Shown here one piece after another: positions 57,375 through 60,277 of a stretch of 64,000 nt of DNA. The DNA comes from Candidatus Saccharibacteria bacterium (GTDB lineage Bacteria > Patescibacteriota > Saccharimonadia > Saccharimonadales > Saccharimonadaceae): positions 248,001 through 312,000 of the forward strand of contig CP066696.1 in assembly GCA_016432585.1 (NCBI GenBank). Reading direction: 5' to 3'. The translations under genes were made by a program, and so were the position numbers. Below the pieces are notes generated by a model. That model was not told the origin of the DNA and ran no database searches. It saw only the letters and a program-made list of their open reading frames with translations. The first letter of the stretch is position 1. Each line of letters starts with the position of its first letter.

Positions 57375-58202
57375 ATGGCGCGACTACCGATACCGGGAAG
57401 TGACGATGGTGACTGGGGCGAAATTCTCAATGATTTTTTGAGTGTCGAACATGCCGCAGATGGGTCGCTAAAGTCTACCGGATCACTGTCGGAAAAAATG
57501 TCGACATCTCTTGTTGCCGCCAAGGGTGACTTGATTGTTGGTACGGCGAGTGAAACGCCAGTCCGGTTGCCGGTTGGGGGTGATGGAGATATTCTAACCT
57601 CTAGCTCGGCATCTGCAACCGGCATGATATGGGCACCTTCTCCGCCGGCTCCGTCTCAGTCGATTTATCCTCTTTCAGCGTATGGGTTTGTGGCGGCATC
57701 TGGAAATATCGAAGCGTTCGACGCTATATCAACGCTAGGATCTAATATGACACGCGTATTCGTGCCTGCTGGAGCTGCTATATCGGTAGTAGGCGCGCTT
57801 CTTAATACGGCCGCTGTCATGAGCGGTTCAGGCGAAAATTCTTTTGCGATCTATGATGATGCGGGAATGTTTGTAGCGCAGACAGTCTCGGATGATACGC
57901 TTTGGACGAACGAAGGCTGGATATTGAAGACGCTACCGAGTGTCGTTCCGGCGCAGAGCGTGGATCGATTTGTGAATGTAGGAATTGCAGTCAATAGTGC
58001 AAGCTCGCCGCCGTATGCTATGTATGCAACGGTTGGTCCTACGCCTCCTCCAGCTCTTGGCGGGGCGTTTCGAGGAGGGTACAATCGCCCGAATCACCGT
58101 AGGGCGTTCTACTTTGGATCGATGCCATCATGGCCGGCCTCGCTAGACCTTACGACTGTTGGGAATGACTACGGGTATCTTCCTCTGATAGTTTTAGCGT
58201 AA
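57375..58202 (+). CDS. Tail-spike-like surface protein with shared N-terminal module
   Basis: Residues 1-33 (MARLPIPGSDDGDWGEILND, then FLSVEHAADGSLK) match the beta-helix protein at 45861 in about 22 of 33 positions, while the rest is unrelated. A linker with tail-fibre-like repeats (AAKGDLIVGTASETPVRLPV, GGDGDILTSSSASATGMIWA) precedes a C-terminal beta-rich domain of about 175 residues (VFVPAGAAISVVGALLNTAA, GYNRPNHRRAFYFGSMPSWP) that resembles a jelly-roll binding head. TATGCT (57361-57366) lies 8 bases before the ATG. It is probably a display or adhesion protein; no phage genes are around it. Confidence 0.7.
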   Translation: MARLPIPGSDDGDWGEILNDFLSVEHAADGSLKSTGSLSEKMSTSLVAAKGDLIVGTASETPVRLPVGGDGDILTSSSASATGMIWAPSPPAPSQSIYPLSAYGFVAASGNIEAFDAISTLGSNMTRVFVPAGAAISVVGALLNTAAVMSGSGENSFAIYDDAGMFVAQTVSDDTLWTNEGWILKTLPSVVPAQSVDRFVNVGIAVNSASSPPYAMYATVGPTPPPALGGAFRGGYNRPNHRRAFYFGSMPSWPASLDLTTVGNDYGYLPLIVLA

Positions 58203-58205
58203 GAA

Positions 58206-58247
58206 GTGTGATCCTGGTCACACGATTTAATATTTTGATGGTATAAT
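58206..58247 (+). promoter_or_regulatory. CRP/GlxR-like palindrome and extended -10 of the 58287 gene
   Basis: GTGTGA (58206-58211) and TCACAC (58218-58223) flank TCCTGG, giving TGTGA-N6-TCACA. Extended -10 TGGTATAAT ends at 58247. If transcription starts near 58254, the palindrome centre is at about -40, close to a class II CRP position; no -35 box is seen. Alternatively it is a weak terminator for the 57375 gene, but no T-run follows. Confidence 0.55.
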
Positions 58248-58286: not shown

Positions 58287-58475
58287 ATGAACAAGAAACT
58301 GTTGAGTCTCGGCATCGTGGCAGCGCTGGTCGCCGGCTACGCAGCGGCGCGCAACCGTCACGTGCTGGCCTCGGCCGCCTCTACCGGTCGCGACCGTGTC
58401 AAGGCCATCACCGACAAGGTGGGTCGCCGTCGGCGCAATGCCCCGGAGGGAGAGGAGCAGGCGTCCGACGCCTGA
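58287..58475 (+). CDS. Small GC-rich basic protein with N-terminal helix (62 aa)
   Basis: Not recognised. MNKKLLSLGIVAALVAGYAA forms a single membrane helix or signal segment, followed by RNRHVLASAASTGRDRVKAI and a basic/acidic end (KVGRRRRNAPEGEEQASDA). The start at 58287 follows TGGAG; a GTG three bases earlier is also in frame. It resembles small YtxH-like membrane proteins in layout only. An overlapping frame from 58280 is rejected because its codon use is random. A perfect 15-bp hairpin (58501-58554) follows. Confidence 0.7.
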   Translation: MNKKLLSLGIVAALVAGYAAARNRHVLASAASTGRDRVKAITDKVGRRRRNAPEGEEQASDA

Positions 58476-58500
58476 TCACCTCCTGAGTTCTCTGTTCACT

Positions 58501-58554
58501 CGCCTGGTGCGATGCATGGAGGTTCCAATCGGGAACTCCGCATCGCACCAGGCG
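58501..58554. other. Perfect 15-bp hairpin between a GC-rich gene and tRNA-Ala
   Basis: CGCCTGGTGCGATGC (58501-58515) pairs with GCATCGCACCAGGCG (58540-58554), with GTTCC/GGAAC inside. No T-run follows on either strand, so it may be a 3' stability or processing element instead of an intrinsic terminator. Confidence 0.7.
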
Positions 58555-58593
58555 TACGAAAATCTGTACATTTGTTATAATAACGTTACATAC

Positions 58594-58670
58594 GGGGCAT
58601 TGGCGCAGTTGGCTAGCGCGCTTCCATGGCATGGAAGAGGTCATCGGTTCGAATCCGATATGCTCCACCA
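58594..58670 (+). tRNA. tRNA-Ala (GGC)
   Basis: Acceptor stem GGGGCAT/ATGCTCC (one G-T pair), discriminator A, CCA encoded. The anticodon stem CTTCC/GGAAG holds the loop ATGGCAT, giving GGC. T-arm CGGTTCGAATCCG. TATAAT at 58575-58580 is a suitable -10. Confidence 0.95.
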
Positions 58671-58699
58671 AGCAATTATTGGTGTTATTTTAATACGGC

Positions 58700-58728
58700 A
58701 AAAAGCTGGCCATAGTGTCAGCTTTTTT
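58700..58728 (+). terminator. Terminator of tRNA-Ala
   Basis: AAAAAGCTG (58700-58708) pairs with CAGCTTTTTT (58719-58728) around GCCATAGTGT. Confidence 0.88.
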
Positions 58729-58738
58729 GTTTTTAAAG

Positions 58739-58767
58739 TTGACTTATGGGTAAAACGAGTTTTAAAT
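58739..58767 (+). promoter_or_regulatory. Promoter of the 58806 gene
   Basis: TTGACT (58739-58744), 17-base spacer, TTAAAT (58762-58767). A leader of about 32 bases contains GAGGAG before the ATG. Confidence 0.6.
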
Positions 58768-58805
58768 AAGATCGCAACCATCAGACGGCAACGAGGAGTG
58801 GCGCA

Positions 58806-59597
58806 ATGTTACGAGGCAAGAGTGACAAAGATGGCCAAGACCAGACGACCGAGGAGGTTGAGCTGACGCTCACTGAGTTGCAGCGTCGCCGTATTGCGGG
58901 CGAGGCGAGACGAGCGGCCAGGGAGGCGACGGCGCAGTGGGCGCTGGAGCACCTGCCGCACAAATCGGCTCCTCCGAATGTTCAGGTGGTCGCGGCATGG
59001 TTGATGACCCTGCGTGACCTCCAGGACTTCCACGCGAACGTCCTAAGAGAAGGGAGTGTCGACCGCATCAACGCCAGTGTCGAGTTGCACTGGGGTGGGA
59101 GTGTGTCGCGCAAGCGACTGTCGGGCGGTAGAATCCACCGCATGTTCGGCCCTAAGGAGATGTCGGGCTCGTTCGAGGACAGCATGTTGGTTCTCGCACG
59201 AGCATTCTGCAACTACTCTGCATCAGATGAGATTCACGAGATTCGTGAGTCAAACTGGATGATTCTGGTTCCGGTCGTGTCGGATCGTGAAGGAATTACC
59301 GATCGTATCTACGTTCACAAGGCGCAACGTGGCTCGGTGATCGAGCAGGCGGTGCGTGAGATGCGGTCTCTTGGCGAGCTATTCGCGCGCGATGAAGAAG
59401 CGCGTGAAGGCCGTCGCCAGCATGGCCGACAGCTCATGGACCGTCAACTGGCAATTGCTGTCGCGGGCGCCCTGGGTCACCAGAGAAGCCTCAAGCAGGT
59501 GTACGACAAGACCTACGAGGAGACGTTCGAGGCCCGAAGGGCAGAGATTCTTGACGGCGGTCAGCCCAAGAAGAGTCGCCGCCCTTGGCGGCGCTGA
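58806..59597 (+). CDS. GC-rich unknown soluble protein (263 aa)
   Basis: Not recognised. GAGGAG lies 8 bases before the ATG. The N-terminus is charged and helical (VELTLTELQRRRIAGEARRA), the middle has an alpha/beta-looking stretch (SVDRINASVELHWGGSVSRK, MILVPVVSDREGITDRIYVH) and the C-terminal third is again helical (LFARDEEAREGRRQHGRQLM) ending in KKSRRPWRR. High Arg content and CTG/ATC/GTC codons set it apart from typA. It has its own promoter, and a 13-bp hairpin follows. It may act on nucleic acid given its charge; no catalytic motif was found. Convergent with the membrane gene at 59753. Confidence 0.75.
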   Translation: MLRGKSDKDGQDQTTEEVELTLTELQRRRIAGEARRAAREATAQWALEHLPHKSAPPNVQVVAAWLMTLRDLQDFHANVLREGSVDRINASVELHWGGSVSRKRLSGGRIHRMFGPKEMSGSFEDSMLVLARAFCNYSASDEIHEIRESNWMILVPVVSDREGITDRIYVHKAQRGSVIEQAVREMRSLGELFARDEEAREGRRQHGRQLMDRQLAIAVAGALGHQRSLKQVYDKTYEETFEARRAEILDGGQPKKSRRPWRR

Positions 59598-59611
59598 CCT
59601 GATGTTTGCAC

Positions 59612-59645
59612 GCCGCGGCGTCATCGCTATGTATGACGCCGCGGC
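59612..59645. other. Hairpin after the 58806 gene
   Basis: GCCGCGGCGTCAT (59612-59624) pairs perfectly with ATGACGCCGCGGC (59633-59645) around CGCTATGT. The plus strand lacks a following T-run. Confidence 0.7.
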
Positions 59646-59663
59646 ACGCAGCAATTTGAATAT

Positions 59664-59684
59664 AAAAAAGACGCCCTAGGGCGC
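59664..59684 (-). terminator. Terminator of the 59753 minus-strand gene
   Basis: On the minus strand GCGCC-CTAG-GGCGT is followed by C and TTTTTT (59669-59664). Confidence 0.75.
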
Positions 59685-59708
59685 AAAGTAATTATTTAGG
59701 TGGCTCTT

Positions 59709-59748
59709 CGGCCCAGCCACACCCGAGGATCCGGGCGCAGCTGGGCCG
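59709..59748. other. Second hairpin after the 59753 gene
   Basis: CGGCCCAGC (59709-59717) pairs with GCTGGGCCG (59740-59748), with CCCG/CGGG inside. It begins 5 bases after the stop of the minus-strand gene. Confidence 0.7.
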
Positions 59749-59752
59749 ACTG

Positions 59753-60277
59753 TTACGAGATGGTGCGCTCGAAGAGCCAGCCGACGACGATCGCGAAGAC
59801 GTTGTTGATACCCGTCAGGACGGAGTATCTCCAGATCTCCAGCGCGTCGCCCACCCACGGAACCAGGGTCGCCATGACCGTCATGGCCAGTCCGAAGATG
59901 AGGCCGTCCCAGAACAGCTTCTCGGACTTCATGTACTTCAGACCCAGGCCGATGGCCAGGGCGAGAGTAATGACGACACCCGAGATGTTCCAGGTCACGC
60001 TCAGGCCAGTTCCGAGTTCGTTGGCGAGTTCGCCGAGCCTGTCAGACAGGCTCCCGATCAGCTTGGTGTCCTGCAGTGTTGAAACTGCAGCCGCCGTCGT
60101 GACCAGAACCAGGATCTGGGGTAGGCGGTTGATCCCCTTGACGCCGGGGATCTTGTCGGCCCACATGTCCAGCAGGATGACTCCGACCAGCGCGAGGCCG
60201 AACTGAATCATCCACGGGTCCACCTCGACGGGTTCGAAGAGGTGGGGCGGTGCTGCGAGAATGGATAAGGTATTCAC
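59753..60277 (-). CDS. GC-rich multi-helix membrane protein (174 aa)
   Basis: Not recognised. The GTG start at 60277 is preceded by GGAAGGAAG. About five helices are seen (residues 24-38, 52-68, 95-115, 125-142 and 150-170), with a periplasmic-looking Pro-rich N-terminus (MNTLSILAAPPHLFEPVEVD) and a loop TKLIGSLSDRLGELANELGT. Uniform CTG/GTC/GCC usage is far from that of typA next to it. The opposite-strand frame at 59700-60206 is a shadow. It might belong with the 58806 protein (convergent neighbours), but nothing else shows a partnership. Confidence 0.75.
   Translation of the reverse strand: MNTLSILAAPPHLFEPVEVDPWMIQFGLALVGVILLDMWADKIPGVKGINRLPQILVLVTTAAAVSTLQDTKLIGSLSDRLGELANELGTGLSVTWNISGVVITLALAIGLGLKYMKSEKLFWDGLIFGLAMTVMATLVPWVGDALEIWRYSVLTGINNVFAIVVGWLFERTIS

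Follow-up and report, generated by a model that had tools for sequence, protein, structure and literature searches.

A CRP-type regulator encoded by the same genome very probably binds the palindrome TGTGATCCTGGTCACA, which lies upstream of a GC-rich orphan gene in the window (the whole 64,000-nt stretch of DNA analyzed here) and is one of a few such sites that precede metabolic genes. We consider it likely that a single explanation joins this operator, a class II-like activation of the gene behind it and a small regulon. A dimer of the 219-aa regulator would occupy the operator and take the place of a missing -35 box, so that an extended -10 promoter would be activated in a class II-like manner and would drive a 62-aa gene starting at 58287; the operator would then be part of a small regulon of this genome, together with those of a phosphoketolase, a class II ribonucleotide reductase (RNR) and an AspT/YidE-type permease. 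The site, the regulator gene, the association between motif and regulator across genomes and the enrichment of -10 boxes at a given spacing were all computed directly and are presented below.

An operator-like palindrome before an orphan gene

The candidate operator, of the form TGTGA-N6-TCACA, occupies positions 58207–58222 (no strand assigned, centre 58214.5) and its extended form GTGTGATCCTGGTCACAC lies at 58206–58223. It is the sole perfect match to this pattern in the whole window, where about 0.065 sites are expected from base composition; since this corresponds to a P of about 0.06 for one window, the site taken alone is weak evidence. An extended -10 element, TGG-TATAAT (ATGG-TATAAT), was found at 58239–58247 on the plus strand, with the hexamer at 58242–58247. 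From the operator centre to the first base of this hexamer (58214.5 to 58242) the distance is 27.5 bp, which places the centre at about -39.5/-40, assuming that transcription starts 7 bp past the -10. There is no -35 hexamer at a spacing of 16–18 bp before this -10, the best score being 2/6, and GTCACA, spaced 19 bp from the -10, scores 4/6 as a -35 hexamer. The predicted geometry is the one of a class II activator, where the operator stands near -41.5 and replaces the -35 box. An earlier note on this DNA, made from the letters alone, had located the palindrome at these very positions, with its centre some 40 bases before the predicted start, near the class II position, and had described an extended -10 lacking a -35 box; these descriptions proved accurate.

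The candidate target, which is the "GC-rich gene" of the earlier note, is a 62-aa ORF at 58287–58475 on the plus strand (67.7% GC), with GGAG before its ATG at 58287 and a single hydrophobic N-terminal segment. No homologue of this gene was recovered from 200 related genomes or from GTDB contigs, which leaves no orthologous promoter for comparison, and the regulation of this orphan is predicted from promoter geometry.

The genome encodes its own CRP/FNR-type protein

A scan of the genome for regulators of the CRP/FNR family, as the earlier note had proposed, led to a gene encoding a 219-aa protein (G000:C1:371965-372621). This protein combines a cNMP_binding with an HTH_Crp_2 domain in a single ORF (46.8 and 36.1 bits, both above the curated cut-offs), which places it in the CRP/FNR superfamily; CRP entries are also among its solved-structure matches. 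A second HTH_Crp_2 match (469726) was set aside as a CRP candidate, since the 258 aa encoded there include no cNMP domain. Alignment with E. coli CRP (17% identity) showed a recognition helix reading SRETVSR where E. coli CRP has SRETVGR. The residues that align with R180, E181 and R185 of E. coli CRP are present, R180 and E181 being found in 10/10 aligned proteins. This R-E-x-x-x-R helix, together with the motif association described below, makes the predicted DNA recognition CRP-type.

The ligand side of the protein is different. In the same alignment (17% identity), the cAMP cassette of E. coli CRP (GELG..RSA) faces PLSQ..YFYEA, and the cAMP-binding cassette appears to be missing from the 219-aa protein. 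The sequence contains no cysteine, and a search of the genome for class III cyclases (PF00211), the one class covered, gave no match. With the cassette apparently missing and no cysteine, the regulator would be neither a cAMP-CRP nor an Fe-S FNR, and it would respond to a ligand other than cAMP.

Relatives of the regulator show 38–59% identity across Saccharibacteria, and the closest ones (up to 59%) are saccharibacterial. The earlier note had suggested a control perhaps derived from the host; given a native regulator with such relatives, host control is unnecessary and this suggestion was not upheld. The note had also named the absence of any CRP/FNR regulator, together with transcript ends mapping to this hairpin, as grounds to abandon its reading; the genome does encode such a regulator. 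The regulator gene is apparently in an operon with hisC and has no perfect site upstream.

Motif frequency is associated with the regulator gene

The relation between motif and regulator was examined in 61 related genomes, one per genus, of which 35 contain a crp-like gene and 26 do not. Perfect motifs averaged 1.71 in the former vs 0.42 in the latter (Mann-Whitney p=0.0004, an optimistic value because the compared genomes share descent), and a reversed-motif control showed no association with crp-like presence in the same 61 genomes (p=0.82). Eight crp-like genes from seven genomes (G013, G023, G027, G035 twice, G036, G047 and G051) have a perfect site at most about 120 bp upstream. In 26 crp loci from named genomes (157 kb), a set not wholly independent of the 61 genomes because L203 and L072 show the same promoter and probably represent one species, nine sites of the GTGAYNNNNRTCAC type were found vs 0.57 expected (16-fold, P=1e-8). 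The reversed control gave 0 in these loci, and 0/9 of the sites lie in a long ORF; four precede crp and one precedes a class II RNR gene.

In L072, L194, L200, L201 and L203 the same operator type stands upstream of a conserved gene whose product has about 180 aa (motif KxYFPxKGSxxLDPxxYPxLQKYAGQ), and in most of these loci the operator is shared with the divergent crp gene. This gene is likely to be a core target.

Activation or repression at the candidate operator

When the distance from the site to a downstream -10 was analyzed, a -10 hexamer (at least 5/6) was found 19–23 bp past the site for 15 of the 67 oriented intergenic sites vs 3.3 in shuffles (p=0.0005), this range of distances having been set after several promoters had been seen, with class II (-41.5) as the prior expectation. 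The ORFs behind the 67 sites were called mechanically and some of the "gene starts" are spurious. The site at 58207–58222 belongs to these 15. An apparent second rise of -10 boxes was seen at 40–44 bp, the place expected for class I (-61.5).

In this genome, the distance from centre to -10 is 27.5 bp for the 62-aa gene, 29.5 bp for the permease, 31.5 bp for the phosphoketolase, 29.5 bp for the RNR (a site with one mismatch), 21.5 bp for a DUF1697 gene, 17.5 bp for an M14 peptidase and 16.5 bp for a GC-rich ORF at site D. This spread, from 16.5 to 31.5 bp, indicates that some are probably repressor sites, and the spacing at the M14 peptidase and at site D suggests repression. The same CRP-like protein may be proposed to block the extended -10 promoter studied here rather than to activate it. 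Sites D and E, where only 16.5–17.5 bp separate the centre from the -10, a spacing shared with a crp-like gene of G036, are in line with repression at some promoters; at 58207–58222, however, the spacing of 27.5 bp agrees with class II and there is no -35 box, and we regard a repressor operator as unlikely at this position. Binding, activation rather than repression here, the identity of the regulated gene and a ligand other than cAMP are what we infer. The flank AAGAAG is common to sites A and D and was judged coincidental, because with respect to the genes it is found on one side at A and on the other at D.

Surroundings of the site and transcription termination

The upstream gene (57375–58202, plus strand) encodes a 275-aa protein with weak phage tail-fibre-like matches. 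Its stop codon lies 4 bp before the palindrome, in which a 7-bp stem is possible, and the palindrome could therefore be read as the intrinsic terminator of this gene. The stable stem followed by a U-tract that defines such a terminator was not found: at -8.4 kcal/mol (z -1.1) the fold does not stand out, and the next bases are GATTTAATATTTT, not a T-run, whereas a terminator-like hairpin after the nearby tRNA-Ala has a T-run and reaches -14.1 kcal/mol (z -3.4). Termination would also leave unexplained both the fixed TGTGA/TCACA with non-pairing centres elsewhere and the association with crp, which makes it improbable, somewhat more so than repression.

Another hairpin, long and strong, lies at 58504–58553 (no strand assigned), between the 62-aa ORF and the tRNA-Ala. 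The region 58496–58565 folds at -42.8 kcal/mol (z -8.4) with no T-run after it, and the hairpin is the probable 3' end of the 62-aa unit. Three GC-rich orphan genes at 58287–60277 flank the tRNA-Ala (67.7, 60.1 and 60.6% GC vs 48% for the window). They have no match to a Pfam, NCBIfam or PHROG family, and searches of 200 related genomes, of viral contigs and of phages gave no homologue of the neighbouring 263-aa GC-rich gene.

Perfect sites exceed expectation in the genome

In the 952-kb genome, five perfect TGTGA-N6-TCACA sites were counted vs 0.97 expected (Poisson P = 0.003), the reversed pattern gave one match, and 0/5 of the perfect sites fall inside an ORF of at least 150 aa. The earlier note had called for a search for further sites before GC-rich genes, and one of the five does lie upstream of another GC-rich small ORF. 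This second ORF (70 aa, L004 1236–1448, minus strand) has no family match. Sites with one mismatch, taken together, show no genome-wide enrichment (24 vs 22 for the control); the more specific GTGAYNNNNRTCAC gave 10 matches vs 3 for its control, several of the extra ones being inside long ORFs. With about one perfect site expected per genome and an orphan gene downstream, the palindrome might be a product of chance without function, but its intergenic position, the class II spacing, the lack of a -35 box and the five-fold excess of sites in the genome leave this explanation with little probability, slightly below that of a terminator. A site for the redox repressor Rex, whose consensus TTGTGAAW4TTCACAA (PMC2883068) shares TGTGA/TCACA, is hardly credible, as the inner AA/TT are missing from TGTGATCCTGGTCACA and the Rex N-terminal domain PF06971 has no match in this genome vs matches in 7 control genomes.

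Candidate targets of the regulator

An operator of the 219-aa regulator is our preferred reading of the palindrome. Other perfect sites in this genome precede the phosphoketolase, the AspT/YidE-like permease with the divergent DUF1697 gene, and the M14 peptidase, and near-consensus sites were found for the B12-dependent (class II) RNR and for class I NrdA. At 369047–372621 (L008, L162), genes for the class II RNR (its C-terminal part lying beside crp) and a cob(I)alamin adenosyltransferase are convergent to crp. The operator before the RNR has a -41.5-like spacing, and the class II RNR gene has a site not only here (one mismatch) but also in G036, where the protein is 79% identical, and in L184; an RNR is also near crp in L182–L184. 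G036, whose regulator is 59% identical, has sites at arginine deiminase, acetate kinase and the RNR orthologue. Taken together, these targets suggest that fermentation, the use of arginine and the reduction of nucleotides are under common control, perhaps in response to the redox or energy state.

A broader picture can be offered tentatively. A regulator of the CRP/FNR type that does not depend on cAMP and is conserved among some of the Saccharibacteria might run a compact regulon for energy and nucleotide metabolism (arginine deiminase, phosphoketolase, acetate kinase, B12-dependent RNR) and might have recruited here a species-specific small membrane protein, acting as a metabolic/redox switch of an epibiont. 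Little work has been done on how Patescibacteria regulate transcription: for Nanosynbacter lyticus, a study from 2025 described the arginine deiminase/glycolysis switch as "yet to be discovered" (PMC12815258), and according to a 2024 review nothing is known of the mechanisms of differentiation (PMC11665869). Among the open-licence literature we found no paper on a CRP/FNR regulon in Saccharibacteria, which is weak evidence of novelty. With a regulator, its operator and candidate targets at hand, one switch of this kind can be tested in tiny parasitic bacteria.

Comparison with known systems

The system resembles class II promoters of E. coli CRP by its TGTGA-N6-TCACA operator, the RETxxR helix and a centre near -41.5 that replaces the -35. 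It differs from them in that the protein is 17% identical, the aligned positions do not show the cAMP cassette and a class III cyclase was not found. ArcR-type CRP/FNR regulators of Firmicutes share the CRP-like motif, and G036 has a perfect site before arginine deiminase; this relationship is judged through targets, the arginine deiminase site being the one of G036. FNR belongs to the same protein family, and the targets likewise include an oxygen-independent ribonucleotide reductase and fermentation genes, but the cysteine-free protein would hold no Fe-S cluster and its operator reads TGTGA vs TTGAT. GlxR of Corynebacterium recognizes the same operator pattern. In contrast, the group of the present regulator is spread across Saccharibacteria and, judging from its relatives, bears no sign of an actinobacterial-host origin. 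Of the CRP/GlxR reading made in the earlier note, the strict GlxR/CRP part does not hold, given that cAMP-binding features are apparently missing, whereas CRP-like control stands on the native regulator, the association of the motif with this protein family and the class II-like position of the site.
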